Shown piece after piece: positions 7,949 to 33,708 of a stretch of DNA of 39,386 nt (its first letter is position 1; every line of letters begins with the position of its first letter). This DNA is from Myxococcales bacterium. GTDB lineage: Bacteria > Myxococcota_A > Polyangia > Polyangiales > Polyangiaceae. The position numbers and the translations under genes are program-made. The notes beneath the pieces were generated by a model, which did no database searches, had not been told where the DNA came from, and saw only the letters and a program-made list of their open reading frames with translations. The DNA lies in the NCBI GenBank assembly GCA_025354825.1, contig JANXMC010000485.1:1-39386 (forward strand). Reading direction: 5' to 3'.

Positions 7949-10900
7949 TCAGCCCTCGGACGACGCGCCGCGCTCGTCACGCGAGCGACGCGAGCGGCGA
8001 AGGCGCGTGAACGCGGCGGCGAGCACGCTGAGGAGGCCGAAGCCCCCCGCGGCGGCTGTCCCCGAGCTCGAGCGCGAGCCTGTCGTCGTGCAGCTGCAGC
8101 CGCCGGACGCGTCCCCCGTCGCCGTGGCGCCGGCCGTCGTGCCGCCATCGGCCGCGGGGGCGACGGGGTGGCCGCAGGCGTCACCGACGCGCGAGCTGAA
8201 GGGCGTGCCGACGATCCCCTTGAAAGCGATGTCGTCGACGTCCCAAGGCTTCACGGCCGTCGACGTCCCCTCGTCGGTGCCCGCGCGGAAGCGGATCTGC
8301 ACCGTCTGGTTCGCGTAGGTCGTGCCGAGATCGAGCGTCTCGGTGATGAACGCGGGGTAGCCCGTGCTCTCGCCGACGTATCCCGCGAGACCCTTCAACG
8401 GGTTCGAGCTCGCCTGGCCTTGGAAGGCCGCGGTGATGGTTCCGGGATAGGCCGGCGTCGCCGTAGCGCCGACGTCTTTCCAGGTCTTGCCGCCGTCGGC
8501 CGAGAGCTCGAGGACGCCGCCGTCCCAGCTGCCGTCGGCGTTCGCTTCGAACGAGTAGCGGTGCTTGAAGGTTACGACGAGGTTGCCCGTCGCGGCGACC
8601 GTCACGGCCGGCGAGACGATCGACTGATCGGAGATCTCCTCCGAGTTGGTGAGCGACCACATCGTGTTCCCCGCGTCGACGCGGCGGGTCCAGACTTGCG
8701 CCTGGCTCAGCGCCTTGTCGCTCGCGTTCGTCCAAAGCGTGTCCTTCGTCTCGACGTCGTCCGTCGCCGACGAGGCCGCCAGCGAGTCCGAGTTGTAGAC
8801 CTGATCGAGGACGCCGCGGATCTGCTTCGTCGTCGCGAGCTTCGGGTCCGTCGCGTCGATCGTCACTTCGATCGCCGCCACGGGGCCGGCACCGGCGAGC
8901 GACGCGGTGACCGTCGCCGTGACCGTTTCGTACGGCTTCGACGGGGGGAAGGTGATGGCGCCGCCGTTGTCGAAAACGAGCGACTTGTCCGACGCCGTGA
9001 CCTTGGCGGTCGTCGCGGCGAGGGGGCCCGTGCCCGAGTTCTTCAGCGTGACGGTGAGGAGCCCCTTCTCGCCGTTGTCGAGGATGCCGTCGTTGTCACA
9101 CGACTGCGTGCTGTCATCGAGCTTCGCGGAAATGAACTCGAGGTCGTTCCCCGTGATGTAGCTCTCCACGACCGGCGTCTGGTCTTGCGACGTGCGGTCC
9201 GGGCCGATGGCCCCGGTGCCTGCGCCGCGCTTGGCGAAGGCCGCCGCGAAGAGCGCGAAGTCCGTTGCGTCGGTCGCGTACGCCGCCGCGAGCACCGCAT
9301 CGCGCGCCTCGAGGATGGTCGGCGCGTTCGGCGTGAGCTTGAGCGACGCAACGAGGTACGCGCGCATGCGCTTGTTGGCTTCGTCGAACGTGAGGCGCGG
9401 GGTGTCGGCGAGGAGCGATGCGTAGCACTCCCAAAGCATGGTCGCCCAGACCTCGCCGGTGTTGTGCACCTCGGCGTTGCTGGCGCCATCCTCGCCGAAG
9501 GCGACCGGCGGGCCGACGGGAAGCGCCGTGCCGTTGCTGATGTGTTTGAACGTCAGCGGGTTCTTCAACATGTTCGTCGAGTACGGATACCGACGAACGC
9601 CGTAGTAAAACGCGTCGGGCTCTTGCCCGCCCATGGCGTAGCCGCCCGTCGCGTAGACGCCGGAGAACTTGGGGTTGGTGACGTTGTCGAGATCGTCCGG
9701 GCGCACCGTGACGGTGAGCGCCACGAAGTCGCTCCACCCTTCGCCCATGCCGCCGGCCTGCTGGCTGCTCAAGCCCGTGCCGTTGCCGACGAGGCGGTTC
9801 GAGAGAATGTGGCCCCACTCGTGGGTGATGATCGCGGTGTCGAGCGCGCCGTCGCGATCGATCGACTTATCGCGCTGAAGCGTGACCGTGACGCCGCCTG
9901 CGAGGGCGGCCTTGATCTTGGCGCCGTCGGTTTGCGAAAGCGAGAGCGTCGGGAGAGACTCCGGCGTGCCTTGGGCCGCGCCGAGCGAAGGCGCCGCGCC
10001 CGCGACGTTGTTGACGATGACCACGCCGATAGCGCCCGCGGCCTGCGCATTCGTCACCTTGGTGATGAAGTCGCAAGCTCCGCGATCGACGAGCGCGATC
10101 TTCCCCGTGATCGCCGCCGCGTTCACGAACGCTTGGCAGCCGTCCGACGGCGTTCCCGCCGTCGTGTTCGTCGACGTGGTGCTCCCGTCGTTGGCGAGGA
10201 CGAGCGTGCCCGACGTCGTGAACGACGCGGGCGCGAACGCCGCGGCTTGCGACGCATACGTTCCCGCCACGCCCGCGGGCGCAGTGACGATGACCTTCGG
10301 GTTCGACGCGCCGTCGAAGAGGTACATCTGAATGACCGGCGAAGCGCCGTCGGCGGGCGTGTTCGCGTTCGCGTTGTTGCGGCCGCTGTAGTCCTGCGCT
10401 TCGCCGAGGACCGGGTCGCCGCCCACGCCGCCGCGCCCGAGGTTGTCCACCTGCGGGTTGAACGACTTCTCGTCCCAGCCGGCGTCGTAATAGTAATCGT
10501 GCATGAAGTTGATGTCGTAGAAGAGCTGCGTCACGACGCCCTTGATGCCCTCGGTCGTCCCCGACGGGCCCGTCGTCATGTTGATCGTGCGATCGAAGAC
10601 GCCCGGCGCCGTCACTTCGGCCGTGAGGTCGCCCGTGCCGAAGCCGTCGGGCGCCTTGAGGTCGGCGTAGGCGTTGACGTTGTTGCCCGAGGTCTTCGTT
10701 GCCCCAGCGGCCAACCAAGGGTCGTTCTTGCTGAACGGCGCGTTGGCGAGGGAGACCAGATTCGGCGCGATGAACGCCGGCGCGTACTGATCGGGGATGC
10801 CCGTGGGGTGGGGCACCGCGAGGTTGCCCATCGGGCCGTCGAGGGGCTTGTTCCCCTTCGCGGCATCGGGCTCGGCCCACACACGGTACGAGAACGAATC

Positions 10901-11827
10901 GTTGGCCGAGAGGTCTTTCCTGAATAGGACCTTCCCCGAGCTCGCCGAGATGACGAACGCGACCATGCGCGCATCGGTGCCCGCCGCCGCGCCGACGTTG
11001 AGCTCGACGTAGTAGCCAGCTTCGAGCGACTTCGGCTGCGGGTAGTAGACCTTCTTCACGCGTGCCGGTCGCGCGGCGAAGCCGGGCGCGGTCTTGAACG
11101 TGTAGAGGTCGTAGGCGCCCGCCGTCGTGCCGAGCGCCGCGGCGCCGTCGATGGTTGCGCCGGTGAGCGCGTTGAATGCGTTCGCGACGGCGACGTCGCC
11201 CGCGAGTGCGAACCCCTTGGTGGCGTCGGCCTTCACGACCGTGGCGAGAAAGCCCGATGCCGCGACCGGCTCGAGGTCGCGCGTGAGCGCCATGTTCAAC
11301 GTGCTGTGAAACAGCTCGATGCCGTCGAGCTCCTGCGTGAAGCGCGCGACGACGACGCCTTTGCCGGTGTCGTGAAGCGTCGTCACCTTGGTCGCCGCGA
11401 GGGCGCGCTCGTTCAGCTTGTAGCTCTTGGCGACGCCGCGCAGGGCGCTGAAAGCGACCTGGTTGGCCGCGGCGCTGAAAGCGACCTGGTTGGCCGCTGC
11501 GCTGAAAGCGACCTGGTTGGCCGCGGCGCTGAAAGCGACCTCGTTCGCGGTGCGCGTGACGCCGTTCTTCGACGCGAGGAGGCTCGCGCCCGACGTGCCA
11601 TCGAGGCGCGAGAGCCAAGCGAAGCTCGGCACGCCGAACTCTTTGTCCACGTGGACCGCTGCGACGCGGAGCGGCATCGCGCTCGTCCCCGAGGCACCTT
11701 CGCTCGCGGCCGCGTTGGCCGTCGCATGGAGGTCGGGCGTGTCGCTCGAGCTCGCACAGGCGGCGAGAACGCCCAACGCCACAACCCCAATTCCTGCCCA
11801 CGCGTACGTCGTCTGGCGCATTCGCAT
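7949..11827 (-). CDS. Secreted M36 (fungalysin-type) metalloprotease
   Basis: A 1292-residue extracellular zinc protease. A lipobox-like signal ends at VLAAC (Cys24), then four copies of a nine-residue repeat (ANQVAFSAA type, about residues 94-128), then an FTP-type propeptide (TGKGVVVARFTQELDGIELF). The catalytic domain has HEWGH near residue 667 and GEGWSD near 694, the M36 zinc site. A PA domain (about 530-615: GKIALVDRGACDF, AIGVVIVNN) is inserted before it. Later come a CARDB-like segment (DNDGILDNGEKG) and a beta-sandwich (WDGGVLELSADGGKTW). The end is a CSC motif, a hydrophobic helix and an Arg cluster, as in MYXO-CTERM proteins. ATG 11827 has GGGAG eleven bases upstream. A nutritional role, as in predatory myxobacteria, is inference. 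Confidence 0.92.
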   Translation of the reverse strand: MRMRQTTYAWAGIGVVALGVLAACASSSDTPDLHATANAAASEGASGTSAMPLRVAAVHVDKEFGVPSFAWLSRLDGTSGASLLASKNGVTRTANEVAFSAAANQVAFSAAANQVAFSAAANQVAFSALRGVAKSYKLNERALAATKVTTLHDTGKGVVVARFTQELDGIELFHSTLNMALTRDLEPVAASGFLATVVKADATKGFALAGDVAVANAFNALTGATIDGAAALGTTAGAYDLYTFKTAPGFAARPARVKKVYYPQPKSLEAGYYVELNVGAAAGTDARMVAFVISASSGKVLFRKDLSANDSFSYRVWAEPDAAKGNKPLDGPMGNLAVPHPTGIPDQYAPAFIAPNLVSLANAPFSKNDPWLAAGATKTSGNNVNAYADLKAPDGFGTGDLTAEVTAPGVFDRTINMTTGPSGTTEGIKGVVTQLFYDINFMHDYYYDAGWDEKSFNPQVDNLGRGGVGGDPVLGEAQDYSGRNNANANTPADGASPVIQMYLFDGASNPKVIVTAPAGVAGTYASQAAAFAPASFTTSGTLVLANDGSTTSTNTTAGTPSDGCQAFVNAAAITGKIALVDRGACDFITKVTNAQAAGAIGVVIVNNVAGAAPSLGAAQGTPESLPTLSLSQTDGAKIKAALAGGVTVTLQRDKSIDRDGALDTAIITHEWGHILSNRLVGNGTGLSSQQAGGMGEGWSDFVALTVTVRPDDLDNVTNPKFSGVYATGGYAMGGQEPDAFYYGVRRYPYSTNMLKNPLTFKHISNGTALPVGPPVAFGEDGASNAEVHNTGEVWATMLWECYASLLADTPRLTFDEANKRMRAYLVASLKLTPNAPTILEARDAVLAAAYATDATDFALFAAAFAKRGAGTGAIGPDRTSQDQTPVVESYITGNDLEFISAKLDDSTQSCDNDGILDNGEKGLLTVTLKNSGTGPLAATTAKVTASDKSLVFDNGGAITFPPSKPYETVTATVTASLAGAGPVAAIEVTIDATDPKLATTKQIRGVLDQVYNSDSLAASSATDDVETKDTLWTNASDKALSQAQVWTRRVDAGNTMWSLTNSEEISDQSIVSPAVTVAATGNLVVTFKHRYSFEANADGSWDGGVLELSADGGKTWKDVGATATPAYPGTITAAFQGQASSNPLKGLAGYVGESTGYPAFITETLDLGTTYANQTVQIRFRAGTDEGTSTAVKPWDVDDIAFKGIVGTPFSSRVGDACGHPVAPAADGGTTAGATATGDASGGCSCTTTGSRSSSGTAAAGGFGLLSVLAAAFTRLRRSRRSRDERGASSEG
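11445..11546. repeat. 27-bp tandem repeat, about four copies, inside the M36 protease gene
   Basis: Units begin at 11445, 11472, 11499 and 11526 with exactly 27-base spacing. The first three are identical apart from a G/T difference, and the fourth diverges in its last third. In the minus-strand protein each unit encodes nine residues, ANQVAFSAA. The period keeps the frame, so copy-number change would lengthen or shorten the pro-region without breaking the gene. Confidence 0.95.
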
Positions 11828-11856
11828 TCGATTACCGGCTCCCAGGGAATTCAGTT

Positions 11857-12084
11857 TCAGTCGACGAAATAGCTTTGCGTCGAGAGGAAGAGACTCTCGT
11901 CGCGCACGTCGTAGCGCACGCCGTTCGGCCAAATTGCGCTTCGAAACGTCTCTTTCGACGACAATTCCGCAACGCTGTAGAAATCCTCGCGGACGTGATC
12001 GCGCGCCCACGCGCGGGGCTGCGCGACGCTATTCGAGAAGCGCGAGCAGATCGTCGCGCGTGAGCCCAACCGCTTGATCCGCAC
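11857..12084 (-). pseudogene. Possible remnant of a small DUF2442-like gene
   Basis: In the gap between the helicase stop and the protease start, the minus strand reads ...FRSAIWPNGVRYDVRDESLFL... and ends at 11857. The WPNG segment recalls the C-terminus of DUF2442 proteins (WPNGAD). The upstream half overlaps the helicase gene in another frame and does not look conserved. At most this is the tail of a lost toxin-antitoxin-associated gene. The resemblance is short and from memory, so confidence is low. Confidence 0.25.
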
Positions 12085-17536: not shown

Positions 17537-20083
17537 CTACAGCTCACCGCCCTCAATCACGGCGGGCTGCGTGGGCTCTTTCGGCTTCGGCGCGTCGTCC
17601 GGACAGCCGTCTTGATCGAGGTAGCCGTTGCGCGTCTCCGGCAGCGCCGGGCACTGGTCGACCTCGTCGGGCACGCCGTCGCCGTCACGATCGCCCGACG
17701 CGCTGACGCTCGCGCGCGCGCCGCCTTCCGCGACACGCGTGAGGCCGCTCGCCGAAAAGCTCAACGTCTCGCCCGCCGTCGTCACGAACGGAAGGCCGCG
17801 CGTCGCCGCGACGGTCTCGGCACTCGTCACGCGACCCGGCGTCGACGCGTACATCGACAGGAGCAGCACGTGCCGCGGCAAGGACGCGCGCCCGAGCGAC
17901 ACGGTGACCGTGTACTCGGCGGGCACGAGGTTGCAGACTTCGAGAGACGCATCCGGCGATGCGCGAACGTCGGCGGCGATGGGCAAAAGCGCGCCGCCCG
18001 GCGTCGTCGGCTTACGTGCGAAGGTGAGGTTCACGTCCCCCTTCGACTGCGCCGAGGCCGCGAAGGTGAAGCACCCTTTCGCGGTCTCTTCGCCGATAGT
18101 CACGCCGTAGGGGATCGTCTCCAGCGCCAGCACGTCGGCGCGCCGCTCTTGGAGATCGCCCAGCAGTTTCACATCACGGCCGTTCGTCGCTTGGCGCGCG
18201 ACCTCGGTCAGCCACGATCGCGTGCCCGGCGCGACGTCGCCCACGTCGCCCTTCGTCTGCGCCTGGGCCTGCCACTTCATCAACAGTTCTTCGAGGCGCA
18301 CCATGAAGAGCGACGCGACCTTCTTGTCGACGTCGTCGGCCGACGGTGGGCGCGCGGCCTTCGCCTCCATTTTGTGCGCGGGGTCGCTCGGCAGCTCGGC
18401 GTCGGTGACGTCGAACGTGAACGCCGAGCTGGTGTCGAGCTCGACGTTCGTACCGCGCCCTTCCGACGTGACCGTCACATGAAAGACGGCGTCGCCCCGG
18501 CGTCGCGCCACCCTGGTCGAGAGGTCGAAGGTCCGCTCGTCGTCGATGGCGACGGTCGCCGGCGTCGATGCGAGACGCGCCTCCGCGTCTTTCAAATGCG
18601 CTTGTGAGGTTTTCCGCGCGGCAATCGCCGACGTCGACCACGCGGCTTCACCCCCGCGCTCCGCCATCACCACTTCGAGATCCGCGCTTGCCACGGCCGC
18701 CTTCGCGTCGAACAGCGCGGCCTCGGCGTCCACGCGCTTCGGGTTCGCGACATCGAGCTTTCCGGCGACGTAGTGATGCGTCCAGACGTCCGTCGCCGTC
18801 TCCACCGGCGGCACCGTGTAGGCGAGCTCGACGTCGATGGCGTGGGTCGCCGGCATCGCTTTCGTGATGTCCGCCGCCCGAAAAAGACGCGCTCCCGACA
18901 GGAGCCGTCGGCGGAGCCGTTCGGGCTCGGGCTTCCCCAATTCGGCGGTGAGGGCCTTCGCGAAGCCCGGCGCTTGCGACCCCTTCGAGCGCACGACCAT
19001 GTTGACGGCGGGCGCATCGGCAGGCGCAATCAGCTTCCCCGCGCGCACGTACAGCGCATCGACGATCCGCTCCCGAACGAGGCGCACGCGCGGCGGCCCG
19101 AACGGCCCGGCCTCGTTGAGGGTGACGAGCTTCACGACGGGAACGCGGCACGCGTAGGTCGGCATCGCGCTCGGCCCCCACTTCGGGCACGTCGAAGGGT
19201 CGACGCCCGTCACCCGTGCGACGAGGGCGTCCGAGATCGCAGGCGGCGCGGTGCTCTCCGGCGACGGCCCCGACAGCCACGCGTAGAACGCGTTCACATC
19301 GGGCTCCTTCGCTTCCTTCGCGTCTTTCGCGTCCTTCGCCGCGGGCGGCGCAGCGAGCGGCGTTTGCGGCGCCTTCGCCTCGACGAAGCAGCGGTCGAAG
19401 ACCTGCCCCGGGACCGTGAGCGCGCCTTCGCCCGCGTCGTGCTCGAGCCTCACCGCGACGTACGTTTTGCCGCCCCCCGCGGCGACGAGCGTCCGCCCCT
19501 TCGTCAGGTACGGGTCGAAGCCAACGTCCGCCCGTCCGCCAAAAATGGGCGACACGTCGACGCATTCGGGGTTGCTCGTCGCAAGCTCGACACGGGTCGC
19601 CGAAAGCTTTGGCATCGCCGCCATTGCAGCTTCGGATCCGACGAGACACCCCCACTTCGCTTGCGACTCGGCAGCCGTGGGCGCGGGCGTATTGCGCAGC
19701 CACGTGCGCGCTCCGGTCTTCGCGTCGCGAACACGAAGCACGCCATAGACGACGTCTTTGAAGTTCAAACGCTCGGTGTGGGGCAGGCGCTCGTCGACGG
19801 CGAGCTCGCGCCGAAAGAGCTCGTTTCGCGCCACGGCGTGCCAGTCGCTCTCGCGGGTCGGCGCCTTCTCGAGCGTCGATGCTTGCAGATCGCACGCAGC
19901 GCTCAGCTCGTAGGCACCGACAAGCGACTTCGTCTCTTTGAGGCGACCGAGCACGGTGCCGCTCTCGAGCGGTATGTACTGGTCGCACGTCGCGCCGATC
20001 GAGGCGGCGGCGAAGACGAACGGCGAAAAACGGGAGAGACGCGAGAGGCGCGAGAGGCGAGAGGGACGGGAGCGCGCGGCCAT
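17537..20083 (-). CDS. Large exported protein with thrombospondin type 3 repeat at the C-terminus
   Basis: 848 residues from ATG 20083. The N-terminus is basic, with an SRLSRLSRLSRFS repeat, then a hydrophobic stretch (FVFAAASIGATC), giving a plausible export signal; a Cys at 33 sits in a poor lipobox. Most of the chain is unrecognised. A low-complexity KDAKDAKEAKE linker occurs around residues 240-250. The end carries a Ca2+-binding thrombospondin type 3 motif, DRDGDGVPDEVDQCPALPETRNGYLDQDGCPDD, of the kind found next to OmpA domains, but no OmpA domain follows. Location is probably periplasm or outer surface. The function is unknown. Its end converges on the sigma-54 activator remnant with a 7-base gap. 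Confidence 0.75.
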   Translation of the reverse strand: MAARSRPSRLSRLSRLSRFSPFVFAAASIGATCDQYIPLESGTVLGRLKETKSLVGAYELSAACDLQASTLEKAPTRESDWHAVARNELFRRELAVDERLPHTERLNFKDVVYGVLRVRDAKTGARTWLRNTPAPTAAESQAKWGCLVGSEAAMAAMPKLSATRVELATSNPECVDVSPIFGGRADVGFDPYLTKGRTLVAAGGGKTYVAVRLEHDAGEGALTVPGQVFDRCFVEAKAPQTPLAAPPAAKDAKDAKEAKEPDVNAFYAWLSGPSPESTAPPAISDALVARVTGVDPSTCPKWGPSAMPTYACRVPVVKLVTLNEAGPFGPPRVRLVRERIVDALYVRAGKLIAPADAPAVNMVVRSKGSQAPGFAKALTAELGKPEPERLRRRLLSGARLFRAADITKAMPATHAIDVELAYTVPPVETATDVWTHHYVAGKLDVANPKRVDAEAALFDAKAAVASADLEVVMAERGGEAAWSTSAIAARKTSQAHLKDAEARLASTPATVAIDDERTFDLSTRVARRRGDAVFHVTVTSEGRGTNVELDTSSAFTFDVTDAELPSDPAHKMEAKAARPPSADDVDKKVASLFMVRLEELLMKWQAQAQTKGDVGDVAPGTRSWLTEVARQATNGRDVKLLGDLQERRADVLALETIPYGVTIGEETAKGCFTFAASAQSKGDVNLTFARKPTTPGGALLPIAADVRASPDASLEVCNLVPAEYTVTVSLGRASLPRHVLLLSMYASTPGRVTSAETVAATRGLPFVTTAGETLSFSASGLTRVAEGGARASVSASGDRDGDGVPDEVDQCPALPETRNGYLDQDGCPDDAPKPKEPTQPAVIEGGEL

Positions 20084-20164
20084 GAGGGTGCCGCCCAATC
20101 TATCGGAGCGCGAACGCCGGCCCGCACTTTCGGGAGCGCGCGTGCGTGGACTACGCTCGCTCAT

Positions 20165-20827
20165 GTGGGCGTACGCCGTACCGTCGCAGAGTCTTCGGCG
20201 TCCGACATCGCCACGCGCGGGACGCGCCTCACGCGCGTGAGGCTTCTGGTCGATCGCGACCACTACGACACGCTGGTGCTGGGCGCGGTCTCGAGGGCGC
20301 GCGTCTCGCTGTGGATCGGCACGGCGAACCTCAAAGAGGTGATGCTCGAAGCGCCCATCGGCAGCACGGCGCGCGCCCGCGGCCGCTACGTGTCGATCGT
20401 CGAGCGCTTCGTCGAGCTCACCCGCGCCGGAGTCGAGGTGCGGATCCTCCACGCAACCCCGCCGTCGCGCGCGTTTCGCGCGGCCCTCGCCGCTCGCCAA
20501 TCGACGAAGACGCTGTCTACGCCGCGCTTCGAGATGCGCCAATGCCCGCGCGTGCATCTCAAGATGATCGCGGTCGACGGCGGCCTCCTTTACCTCGGCA
20601 GCGCGAACTTCACCGGCGCGGGCATCGGCGCAAAAGGGGTCGGCCGGCGCAACTTCGAAATGGGCATCGTGACGGACGACGACGTGATGCTCGACGCCAC
20701 GCAGGCCCGCTATGAGCGCATCTGGTCCGGAAAAGAATGTGCAGGGTGCAAGCTTCGGGCGGTCTGCCCCGCACCCATCGATGGACTCGCCGCCTTACGC
20801 CCGAAGGCGCTAAAGACGAAGCGATGA
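20165..20827 (+). CDS. Phospholipase D-like protein with C-terminal cysteine cluster
   Basis: The ~220-residue product has one HKD motif, VHLKMIAVDGGLLYLGSANF, matching HxKxxxxD...GSxN of the PLD superfamily. VSLWIGTANLKEVML upstream corresponds to the usual strand before the first half of the fold. A single HKD motif suggests action as a dimer, as in Nuc-type nucleases. The C-terminus ends in GKECAGCKLRAVCPAP, with Cys spaced CxxCx5C, possibly a metal site. The start is uncertain: GTG at 20165 or GTG at 20237; I chose the first. The stop overlaps the ATG of the following lipoprotein (ATGA), so the two are translationally coupled. No signal peptide is evident. Nuclease or phospholipase activity is undecided. 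Confidence 0.78.
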   Translation: MGVRRTVAESSASDIATRGTRLTRVRLLVDRDHYDTLVLGAVSRARVSLWIGTANLKEVMLEAPIGSTARARGRYVSIVERFVELTRAGVEVRILHATPPSRAFRAALAARQSTKTLSTPRFEMRQCPRVHLKMIAVDGGLLYLGSANFTGAGIGAKGVGRRNFEMGIVTDDDVMLDATQARYERIWSGKECAGCKLRAVCPAPIDGLAALRPKALKTKR

Positions 20828-23533: not shown

Positions 23534-24475
23534 GTGGAACACATTCTCTCGAAGCGCGTGCTGCTCATCAGTGGAAAAGGCGGCGTCGGCCGCACGACCC
23601 TCTCGGCGGCGATCGCCGTCGCAGGCGCCGCCGCGGGAAAGCGCGTGCTGCTGACCGAAATCGGCGTCCCCGGGGGCGACTACTCGCCGCTCGCGCGTCT
23701 CTTCGGGCGTGACTGCTTCGCCGGCGCGCCCGAGACTCTGAAAACAGCCGCCGTTCCGGCCGGCTCCCCCGGCCTGCTGCGGGGGTCGCTCCTCTGGTCG
23801 CGCGCTGGCCACGAGCAGTTCCTCCGTACGGTCATCCCGGTGAGCGCCCTCGTCCGTGCGGCGATGGGGTCGAAAGCGCTCTCGCGCCTGCTCGACGCAG
23901 CACCGTCGTTCAACGAGATGGGCGTCTTCTACCACCTGCTCTCGTACCTCCGCGAAACCCGAAAAGACGGCTCGCCGGAGCACGATCTCGTCATCATCGA
24001 CATGCCCGCCACGGGCCACGCTCTGGCGCTCGCGAGCCTGCCCGAGATTCTTCTCCGCCTCATGCCGGTGGGCCCCATCGCCGAGGCGCTGCGCGCAGGT
24101 CAGGGGTACTTGAACGACCCGAAACGCGCGGCGGCCTACGTGGTCACGCTCCCCGAGACGCTGCCCGTCACCGAGTCGATCGAGCTCGTCGAAGGTCTGC
24201 GGAGCGTCCACGTCCCGGTCGGCGGCGTCATCGTCAACAAGTGGGTCGACGACGAGTTCTCCGCCGAAGAGCGCGCGGCATTGGCGCCGCTTTTGGCGTC
24301 CCGCGAGTTCTACGGAACGCTCCGCTTCGGCGCCGTCGAGAAGGCGCGCGCCGAGGTGGAGCGGCTCGCCAAGTTGAGTGGTGCGCGCATCTTGAAGGTC
24401 AGCGAAGTCCCCGCCCAGGGCGACACGCTCCTCACGGCCGTCGCTTCGGCGCTGCAGATTCGGAGCGCGGCATGA
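23534..24475 (+). CDS. ArsA/Get3-family ATPase, first subunit, P-loop Lys replaced by Arg
   Basis: A 313-residue member of the ArsA/Get3 branch of deviant-Walker-A ATPases. The P-loop reads SGKGGVGRTT (residues 13-22): the signature lysine (Lys15) is present, but the usually invariant P-loop lysine is Arg20. Switch II corresponds to DMPATGHALALASLP. The GTG start has AAGGA five bases upstream. The stop overlaps the ATG of the second subunit (ATGA), so they are translated together and probably form a heterodimer. A similar adjacent pair is known in Mycobacterium (Rv3679/Rv3680, called BagA/BagB). Arsenite transport is unlikely because no ArsB and no Cys triad are seen. A chaperone-like or targeting role is inference. 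Confidence 0.87.
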   Translation: MEHILSKRVLLISGKGGVGRTTLSAAIAVAGAAAGKRVLLTEIGVPGGDYSPLARLFGRDCFAGAPETLKTAAVPAGSPGLLRGSLLWSRAGHEQFLRTVIPVSALVRAAMGSKALSRLLDAAPSFNEMGVFYHLLSYLRETRKDGSPEHDLVIIDMPATGHALALASLPEILLRLMPVGPIAEALRAGQGYLNDPKRAAAYVVTLPETLPVTESIELVEGLRSVHVPVGGVIVNKWVDDEFSAEERAALAPLLASREFYGTLRFGAVEKARAEVERLAKLSGARILKVSEVPAQGDTLLTAVASALQIRSAA

Positions 24476-25593
24476 GCGAGCGGATGTTCGATCTGATACG
24501 CAGCCGCAAGGTCATCGTCTGCTGCGGCGCAGGCGGGGTCGGCAAGACGACGACGTCGACGGGCATCGCCCTCGCGGCCGCGCGACTGGGTCGGCGTGTT
24601 CTGGCGCTCACGGTCGATCCGTCGAAGCGCCTCGCCGAAGTGCTCGGGGTGGAGCGAAATCCGAAAAACCCCGTTGCGATGGCGTCCGATCGCATGCAGG
24701 CCGCCGGCATCGTTCCGCCGGGGATCCTCGAAACGTGGATGCTCGACCCCAAGCTCGTGGCCGAACGTGCGGTGGCGCGCCTCGTGAAGGACGAGGGCGA
24801 GATGAGCCGCCTCACGCAGAACCGCATCTACAAGGAAGTGAGCCGGATGGTCGCGGGCATGCAGGAGTACACGGCCATGGAAGCGCTCCACGGCTTCCTC
24901 CGCGATGGGCGCTACGATCTCATCGTCCTCGACACGCCGCCGTCTCGAAACGCCCTCGATTTTCTCGAGGGTCCGGGCAGGCTCGCGCAGTTCATCGACG
25001 GGCGCATCTTTCAGCTTTTTGTGCCCAGCGCAGACGCGGGCCTCTTCCAACAGGGCGCCGCGAAGATCCTCTCGAAGGTCCTCTCGGCCACGTTCGGCGA
25101 AGAGACGCACCACGAGCTGCAAGAGTTCTTCGGCTCCTTCGCGAGCGTCTTCGGCAATCTCAACGAGAGCGCCGGCAGCATGCGCGCGACGCTCAGCGAC
25201 CCCAACGAGGTCGCCTTCGTCCTCGTCAGCTCACCGGCTGCCGAAGCGCTGACGGACGCCTACTTTTTCCGAAAAAAGACGCTCGATATGCACCTGCCGT
25301 TTCGCGGCTTCGTGTTGAACCGCAGCCAGGCCCGGGCCGATCGCCGCATCTGCCCGCCCGAAGAGCGTTTCCTCGGCGCGCCCCCCACGCCCCTGCAGGC
25401 GAGCGCGCTCAAGAAGCTTCAGCGCTTGGCGCAGGTCGAGCTGGCCGAGGTCGATCGCGACAAGGCGCTCCTCGAGCACCTCGGTCGCGATGCCGGCGAA
25501 GGGGCCTTCGCGATCGCGCTCCCGACCGTGCCCGGCGGCGCGAACGATATGGCGTCGCTGCTGCGAATCGCCGACGCACTCGTGGCGTCGTAG
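24472..25593 (+). CDS. ArsA/Get3-family ATPase, second subunit, lacks the signature Lys
   Basis: A 373-residue ATPase with P-loop CCGAGGVGKTTT: P-loop Lys25 is intact, but the position of the deviant-Walker signature lysine is Ala20. Other motifs are LTVDPSKRLAEVLGV, LIVLDTPPSRNALDFLEGPGRLAQFID (switch II region) and a C-terminal helical part with GFVLNRSQA. A helical insertion of about 100 residues (QEYTAMEALHGFL...) lies before switch II, the region that binds clients in Get3. The CGAGGVGKTTT wording matches my memory of mycobacterial Rv3680. Together with the upstream gene it would make a heterodimer in which each subunit lacks one of the two lysines. The cellular role is unknown. Confidence 0.88.
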   Translation: MSERMFDLIRSRKVIVCCGAGGVGKTTTSTGIALAAARLGRRVLALTVDPSKRLAEVLGVERNPKNPVAMASDRMQAAGIVPPGILETWMLDPKLVAERAVARLVKDEGEMSRLTQNRIYKEVSRMVAGMQEYTAMEALHGFLRDGRYDLIVLDTPPSRNALDFLEGPGRLAQFIDGRIFQLFVPSADAGLFQQGAAKILSKVLSATFGEETHHELQEFFGSFASVFGNLNESAGSMRATLSDPNEVAFVLVSSPAAEALTDAYFFRKKTLDMHLPFRGFVLNRSQARADRRICPPEERFLGAPPTPLQASALKKLQRLAQVELAEVDRDKALLEHLGRDAGEGAFAIALPTVPGGANDMASLLRIADALVAS

Positions 25594-31806: not shown

Positions 31807-33708
31807 ATGGCCGCTCTCTGTTTCTCCCTCGCGGCGGTGGTGATCCTTGCGGTCACCGCCGCCGCGCGCCTTTTGTCGGCGTCGCCCTCGTCGGTGCCGT
31901 CACCAAGCCGCCTCCACGAGCGGGCGCCGGTCGCCGCGGTCATCGCTCTCGTCGCGCCCGTCGTCCTCGTGCGCGCACTTGCCGCGGTGCACCTTCTCAA
32001 CGGCCCCGCGGTCGTCCTCGCGACGCTGCTCCTTGCAATTGCAACGGTCATCGCGGTCGGTCGGCGGGCCCGCGCGCAAGCGGCGCAGGACGCGCGAACG
32101 CTCGCGCGCGCGCTCCGCGAAATCTCACGCGCAGGCGCCGCGATCGCCGTGCTCGCCGTCGGGGTCGTCGGCCTTCTCCTCTCTGCGACGTCCGCCGTGC
32201 TTCTGCCCATCTGGTCGTGGGACGCCCTCGGCTACCACTTGCCGATCGTCTACGACGCGATGCAGACCGGCGAGCTCCGCTGGGTGCCGACGAGCGTGCC
32301 GTTCGTCAACGTCTACCCGCGCGCGACCGAGCTCTACTTCCTCTGGTGCCGCTTGCAGCTTGGCGACGACGCACTCGTAGATTTCTGCCAGGCCCCCTTC
32401 GGCATCGCGGCGGTCGTCGCGAGCGCGTCCCTCGCCCGCCGGGCCGGCGCATCGGCACCGCGCGCGATTGCGTACGGCGTGGCCTACCTCGCCGTGCCCC
32501 TCGTCGTCTTGCAGCTCGCCACTTGCTACGTCGACGTCGCCTACGCGGCCGCGCTGCTTCTCGCCGTCGTCTTCGTCACAGGCCCCGTCACCGAGCGCAC
32601 TGCGCTCTTCGCGGGCGTCGCAATTGCGCTTCTTCTCTCGACGAAACCTACGGCGCCGCCGTCGGCCGCGCTCCTCTGCGCCGTGATGATCGTGCGGGCC
32701 CATCGCGCGCGGCGCGCGCGCCTCGGCGTCTTCGCCGCGTCGGTCGCCGTCGTCGGTGCCGAGGCCTACGTGCGCAACTTGCTCCGCTTCGGCAATCCGA
32801 TTTGGCCCATCAACGTGAGCGTCGGGCCGTTCACGTTGAGCGGGCCCGAGCTCGCCGCCCCTCTGTTCACGCAAGGGCTTCCCGATGTCTACGCGCGCGC
32901 GTCGTACCCGGTTCGCGTCGCGGCCTCGTGGTTTCTCGAGCCGGTCCCGTACCTCTACGACATGCGCATGGGCGGGCTCGGGCCGCTCTTCGCCTACGTG
33001 CTGCTGCCCGTGGCCGTCGTGCTCGTCGTGCGTCGTGATCCGCGCGTGCGCGGTGCGCGCCTCGCGGCGCTTCTCGTCGCCGCGTGTGTTCTCGCCACGC
33101 CTGCCGCGCACTGGAGCCGCTTCACCCTCGCGCTCCCAGCGGCGCTCCTCGCACTGGCCGCCGCGGCTTCCGAACGCTTCTCCCCACGCGCACGTGTTGG
33201 CCTCGACAGCGCCGTTGCGATCGCCGCGCTCGTCGGTTTCGTTCGCACGGTTCCCGGGCTCACGGGCGAGGGGCCACCGCTATCGGAGATGCTCAGGATG
33301 CCCGCCGCCGCGCGCGCGACGGCCGTGAGCGTCGACGGTCGCGAGCCGCAGTGGGCAAAGGCTCGCAACGCGCTCTCGCCCGGCGACGCTGTCGCCTACG
33401 ACCGCGTGTTCGAGCTCCCCGGCCAGCTATGGCGCCCCGACGGCGCGACGCGCGTCGTGTACCTCGACGACACGCGCGACGACGTCCGCGACGCCGCCGC
33501 GCTGCTCGCCGGGCTCGATCGCGAGCACGTGCGCGTCCTGGTGGCGGGTGACGATCTCCCTACGGCCGGCGCGGTCGCGCGCGAGCCGTGGCGCTTCACC
33601 TCGCTCTTCCGATGCCCTCTCGATCCGTGCACCGTCTACGCCGTCGCGCCCGCGGCTACACCAGCGGCTGTCGCACCGCCGGTTTCGGGCGGAGCGCGTA
33701 TGCCGTGA
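31807..33708 (+). CDS. Polytopic membrane protein, GT-C-type glycosyltransferase-like
   Basis: A 633-residue protein with about ten or more hydrophobic helices, a large first loop and a soluble C-terminal part (about 490-600). The loop after an early helix reads LLPIWSWDALGYHLPIVYDAMQTGELRWVP. An acidic residue in this position, followed by YH.P, is typical of GT-C enzymes that use polyprenyl-phosphate sugars (ArnT/PMT type). VRNLLRFGNPIWPIN later in the chain is also a pattern seen in that group. The acceptor is unknown. It starts 32 bases after the glycosyltransferase gene and is probably in the same operon. Its last 17 codons overlap the convergent gene at 33656-34078. Confidence 0.75.
   Translation: MAALCFSLAAVVILAVTAAARLLSASPSSVPSPSRLHERAPVAAVIALVAPVVLVRALAAVHLLNGPAVVLATLLLAIATVIAVGRRARAQAAQDARTLARALREISRAGAAIAVLAVGVVGLLLSATSAVLLPIWSWDALGYHLPIVYDAMQTGELRWVPTSVPFVNVYPRATELYFLWCRLQLGDDALVDFCQAPFGIAAVVASASLARRAGASAPRAIAYGVAYLAVPLVVLQLATCYVDVAYAAALLLAVVFVTGPVTERTALFAGVAIALLLSTKPTAPPSAALLCAVMIVRAHRARRARLGVFAASVAVVGAEAYVRNLLRFGNPIWPINVSVGPFTLSGPELAAPLFTQGLPDVYARASYPVRVAASWFLEPVPYLYDMRMGGLGPLFAYVLLPVAVVLVVRRDPRVRGARLAALLVAACVLATPAAHWSRFTLALPAALLALAAAASERFSPRARVGLDSAVAIAALVGFVRTVPGLTGEGPPLSEMLRMPAAARATAVSVDGREPQWAKARNALSPGDAVAYDRVFELPGQLWRPDGATRVVYLDDTRDDVRDAAALLAGLDREHVRVLVAGDDLPTAGAVAREPWRFTSLFRCPLDPCTVYAVAPAATPAAVAPPVSGGARMP

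Follow-up and report, generated by a model that had tools for sequence, protein, structure and literature searches.

Get3, MinD and ArsA are treated as machines with two sites, each subunit completing that of its partner. Eukaryotic and archaeal Get3/TRC40 is a symmetric homodimer whose subunits each carry the signature (intersubunit) lysine, the P-loop lysine and the switch-I Asp, and many members have a CXXC zinc motif. The two-domain arsenite ATPase ArsA is a pseudo-dimer with two composite sites and keeps Lys in both halves. Get3d forms homodimers in which both trans lysines are present, and it has an alpha-crystallin domain at its C-terminus. The described proteins closest to the gene pair reported here are mycobacterial BagA and BagB (Rv3679-Rv3680; PDB 6BS3-6BS5), and the entry 6bs3, titled 'ADP-bound bacterial Get3-like A and B', contains both Mtb proteins solved together. 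In M. smegmatis and Mtb, bagAB has been connected with citrate tolerance, with survival under glycerol and nitric oxide (PMC10597346) and with streptomycin survival (PMC12216072).

We analysed a window of 39,386 nucleotides, corresponding to contig C701 of an 8.98-Mb Myxococcales assembly, which contains a bagA-type gene followed by a bagB-type gene (Table 1). Both open reading frames and their motifs, GKGGVGRT in the first protein and GAGGVGKT in the second, are exactly as an earlier sequence-only reading had given them. The two genes overlap in the sequence ATGA and are therefore probably co-translated. The pair stands alone, with a divergent dinB gene upstream and a convergent YchJ-like gene downstream. 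Across the lineages examined we found no shared genomic partner gene, since every lineage has other neighbours, among them genes for a RecD-like helicase, a beta-barrel protein, a chalcone isomerase-like protein, Ppx/GppA, a 3-beta-HSD, an SSF symporter, an ABC permease and enolase; a thioredoxin-like gene lies downstream of bagAB in two lineages. Elsewhere in the window, two long open reading frames (17537-20557, minus strand, 1006 aa; 31807-33708, plus strand, 633 aa) have no Pfam match, and a fungalysin-type M36 metallopeptidase of 1353 aa with an inserted PA domain is encoded at 7949-12010 on the minus strand.

Table 1. The bagAB-type gene pair and the active-site positions compared in this study (window coordinates)
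Feature	Position	Strand	Remarks
bagA-type gene, protein 1	23534..24475	+	313 aa; GKGGVGRT; signature-lysine donor subunit; GTG start, AAAAGGA just 5'
BagA signature (intersubunit) lysine K15	23576..23578	+	codon AAA; invariant, 86/86 BagA-type
BagA P-loop residue R20 (canonical Lys position)	23591..23593	+	codon CGC; R 48, K 38, none other in 86 BagA-type
BagA G44 at catalytic switch-I Asp position (Get3 D57; BagB D49)	23663..23665	+	same +24 distance from P-loop K/R
BagA switch-II D156 (DMPATGH), retained	23999..24001	+	48/48 Arg-type, 38/38 Lys-type
BagA N235, position of adenosine-selecting Asn, Get3 strand beta-7	24236..24238	+	48/48 Arg-type, 38/38 Lys-type; equivalence inferred from position
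bagB-type gene, protein 2	24472..25593	+	373 aa; GAGGVGKT; putative catalytic subunit
BagB A20 at signature-lysine position	24529..24531	+	codon GCA; never K in 76 BagB-type
BagB P-loop lysine K25, retained	24544..24546	+	codon AAG; 76/76 BagB-type
BagB switch-I D49, retained	24616..24618	+	76/76 BagB-type

Both proteins exceed the curated cut-off of Pfam ArsA_ATPase (PF02374; 84.4 and 71.4 bits against 24.3), and their sequence and fold matches lead to the chains of 6bs3, which bears out their initial assignment to the Get3/ArsA family. The top PDB sequence match of protein 1 is 6bs3_A (Rv3679; E 3.7e-17), and that of protein 2 is 6bs3_B (Rv3680; E 7.4e-53). The AlphaFold models (mean pLDDT 92.0 and 87.9) match the same chains in fold, with a Z score of 28.7 over 301 residues for protein 1 and of 32.2 over 345 residues (rmsd 5.5) for protein 2. 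BagA (NF053622) is also the best NCBIfam match of protein 1, yet its score of 87.1 bits falls far below the equivalog cut-off of 400; protein 1 is therefore a distant homologue of Rv3679 and not an equivalog. Protein 2 is likewise a distant relative of BagB (best match NF053621, 221 bits against a cut-off of 521). The two-gene arrangement, gene order and folds are all the same as in mycobacteria, and the signature-motif stretch CCGAGGVGKTTT is identical in protein 2 and Rv3680. Rv3679 and protein 1 both lack the switch-I Asp, with Glu at this position in Rv3679; however, Rv3679 keeps the P-loop Lys (GKGGTGKS), whereas protein 1 has Arg.

Comparison with the other systems places the pair apart from each of them. 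It shares with Get3/TRC40 the nucleotide-binding fold with a deviant Walker A motif and the helical subdomain, but not the symmetry: neither of its two proteins has the full set of two lysines and a switch-I Asp, and no conserved Cys pair of the CXXC type was found, the only columns with Cys at 40% or more being a CC just before the BagB P-loop. Get3d, especially NosGet3d from Nostoc (All4481; PDB 3IGF, 8EGK), resembles protein 1 in having Arg for Lys in the P-loop, a kept signature Lys and a degenerate switch I (PMC10248533). In contrast to Get3d, the pair here is a putative heterodimer, and both predicted structures finish in a helix, with no beta-rich C-terminal domain of the alpha-crystallin kind predicted. 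Arg at the same P-loop position also occurs elsewhere in the class, in the KGGVGR-motif variant AAA ATPases of NCBIfam NF047398, a family whose cut-off of 90 bits the window protein does not reach (26.4 bits).

Relatives were gathered from 60 genomes of the same bacterial family, from 235 genomes of the phylum, of which 30 gave a match at E<=1e-40, from the GTDB contig collection and from the phyla of two more MAGs (144 and 198 genomes), yielding 86 BagA-type and 76 BagB-type sequences, counting Rv3679 and Rv3680. Neither lysine position was fixed in the motif search, and BagA pieces lacked the motif only where a contig end had cut them. For loci from MAGs, the organism labels may be wrong.

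The asymmetry between the two sites is real and not due to chance: the lysines of the BagB-side composite site never change, and the replaced lysines are those of the BagA side. The sequence-only reading had proposed that a single complete composite site lies in protein 2, to which protein 1 contributes its Lys, and that the signature loss resembles that of Rv3680. Both proposals agree with the survey, in which the signature Lys is present in 86/86 BagA and the P-loop Lys in 76/76 BagB, while Lys occurs at the BagB signature position in 0/76. This BagB position is occupied by A (47), G (9), C (6), S (5), T (5), P (3) or V (1), with at least 13 changes on the BagB tree, and behaves like a lost function limited only in size. 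No conserved replacement for the signature Lys was found elsewhere in BagB, where Arg53 is the sole invariant among the other basic residues. The BagA P-loop position, judged by the same comparison, appears to be a specific, selected replacement. Random change, the outcome that the earlier reading had named as speaking against it, is ruled out at this position, where K and R are the sole residues in 86 sequences. Nor is Arg20 a sequencing error, because its CGC codon differs from AAG in all three bases and Arg recurs in 48/86 BagA-type sequences, encoded by CGN in 45 of the 47 for which DNA was read.

A third loss on the BagA-side site, one that the earlier reading did not contain, is that of the switch-I Asp, which in yeast Get3 (D57) aligns the attacking water (PMC10248533). 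Asp is found at this position in 0/48 Arg-type BagA (G 20, E 17, others), in 1/12 Lys-type BagA that are linked or actinobacterial, and in 1/26 solo BagA. The solo BagA (L023-L038, L111-L128) mostly have Asn here, the same change as in the Get3 D57N trap mutant. Thus, three of the residues checked are lost on the BagA side, whereas all of those checked on the BagB side are kept. Other parts of the BagA site are invariant among Arg-type sequences, namely the P-loop glycines, T/S21, D156 and N235, the last at the position of the beta-7 Asn that selects adenosine in Get3 (PMC10248533). Given this conservation and the invariance of Arg within its clade, BagA probably still binds nucleotide.

On the same grounds, the original description of the BagA side as a dead site was too strong. 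NosGet3d, which has the same Lys-to-Arg change and a switch-I Glu, is an active ATPase, with a kcat of 0.28/min compared with 1.10 for Arabidopsis Get3d (PMC10248533), and the ATPase activity of MSMEG_3743 survived K-to-A mutation at both lysines (PMC10482377). Residue loss alone is therefore no proof of an inactive site. A further point against inactivity is that Mtb BagA reportedly requires an intact ATP-binding motif in vivo.

In the BagA tree, 46 of the Arg sequences group together, with linked Lys-type pairs from the same bacterial family as nearest neighbours, and a tree constrained to keep these 46 together was no worse than the unconstrained one (AU p 0.80). A single origin for all 48 Arg sequences was rejected (AU test, p 0.016). 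The other two, L092 (G279) and L093 (G277), appear to have gained Arg separately, a result that rests on the model because both are long branches. Each belongs to a second, divergent bagAB pair in its genome, and in L093 the open reading frame for BagB is short (151 aa) and perhaps broken. The Arg thus appears to be a mostly single-origin step with at least one further origin, distributed in Myxococcota, Bdellovibrionota and allied MAGs. Since Rv3680 and every other BagB lack the signature Lys, the signature loss is ancestral and the older event, common to Rv3680, and the Arg a later, extra step, as had been suggested at the outset.

Gene linkage is equally consistent. In 46/46 assessable Arg-type loci, the gene immediately after bagA is bagB, in the same orientation (L010 stops at a contig end), and BagA and BagB distances are correlated in a mirror-tree comparison (r 0.82; highest value among 2000 permutations 0.24), to which shared species history contributes. 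In L055, from a MAG labelled Bdellovibrionales, BagA and BagB are fused in one protein of 694 residues with GKGGVGRS and GAGGVGKT, a layout like that of ArsA. With the joint crystallisation of the Mtb relatives, these observations support the earlier view of the two as partner genes, and in a broad sense the locus is a BagAB-type pair: adjacent, A then B, with the signature Lys in BagA and not in BagB. The L055 fusion and the title of 6bs3 also lend indirect support to a physical heterodimer. In the fusion (L055:2957-5038; also L086), a Pro/Ala-rich linker joins the two parts. Most genomes of the same family also have one more gene of each type, a BagA-type gene with GKGGVGKT and a BagB-type gene with A, C or S in place of the signature Lys. 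These are non-adjacent even in single-contig genomes and so constitute a split BagAB, in some cases beside a linked pair (L005 in G000:C484, L003 in G000:C656, L023-L038, L103-L122).

We infer, with a probability of roughly 0.65, that BagA and BagB of this locus are obligate partners in a heterodimer of the Get3/ArsA (SIMIBI, MinD-type) class and that this dimer has a single hydrolytic site. In BagB, the bound ATP would be held by the P-loop residues Lys25 and Thr26, the switch-I Asp49 and the switch-II Asp154, and the composite site would be completed in trans by BagA Lys15. The mirror site on BagA would be without a trans lysine (BagB Ala20), a switch-I Asp (Gly44) and a P-loop Lys (Arg20). 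It most likely binds nucleotide, with very slow or no hydrolysis, and may have a structural or regulatory role. The helical subdomains would hold a client and move it as the dimer closes and opens, a cycle powered by one hydrolysis event in BagB; by analogy with Get3, our guess is that such a client may be a tail-anchored or other hydrophobic protein. More tentatively, and with considerable doubt, Arg20 may permanently retain a nucleotide in the BagA site, where it would serve as a structural cofactor, with single BagB hydrolysis events cycling an obligately one-site dimer; the locking of that nucleotide by Arg may be the reason why this residue was selected on at least two independent occasions.

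These readings have to be weighed against others that differ in the state of the BagA site. It is unlikely that both sites hydrolyse ATP at different rates, with Arg20 standing in for Lys as in cyanobacterial Get3d. The kcat of 0.28/min of NosGet3d with its P-loop Arg and switch-I Glu (PMC10248533) would fit such a scheme, as would the restriction of the BagA P-loop position to K or R, which suggests selection for positive charge, and the Glu at the switch-I position in 17/48 Arg-type BagA. However, NosGet3d keeps its trans lysine, whereas the BagA site receives none from a BagB that lacks it in 76/76 sequences, and protein 1 has Gly, not Glu, at switch I. At the other extreme, a BagA site that is fully dead and empty, with Arg merely stabilising the loop that bears the signature lysine, would account for the three missing catalytic residues; we find this still harder to accept, as an empty site should drift, yet 48/48 Arg-type BagA retain T/S21, D156 and N235, the residues that serve to bind nucleotide and Mg.

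Two further alternatives concern the assembly and identity of the pair. BagA alone shares its lysine pattern with the homodimeric NosGet3d, but strict gene coupling, one fusion and the joint Mtb crystal make it very improbable that BagA and BagB act as separate homodimers, and a BagB homodimer would have a signature lysine at neither site. The suggestion that the pair is an arsenite pump ATPase draws on the Pfam ArsA_ATPase scores of both proteins and is hardly credible: NCBIfam TIGR04291 gives only 52.9 and 38.7 bits against a cut-off of 650, the neighbouring dinB and YchJ-like genes provide no ars operon context, and a separate ArsA-like gene pair is present in the same genome. That pair (L001/L002; G000:C378) consists of two overlapping open reading frames resembling ArsA halves, with GKGGVGKT, and hence a P-loop Lys, in both.

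In summary, a natural heterodimer with one-sided catalytic residues would make it possible to test directly whether the open/closed cycle can run on a single hydrolysis event. For the mycobacterial system, the one-sided residue pattern suggests catalytic roles for the BagA and BagB subunits of Mtb.
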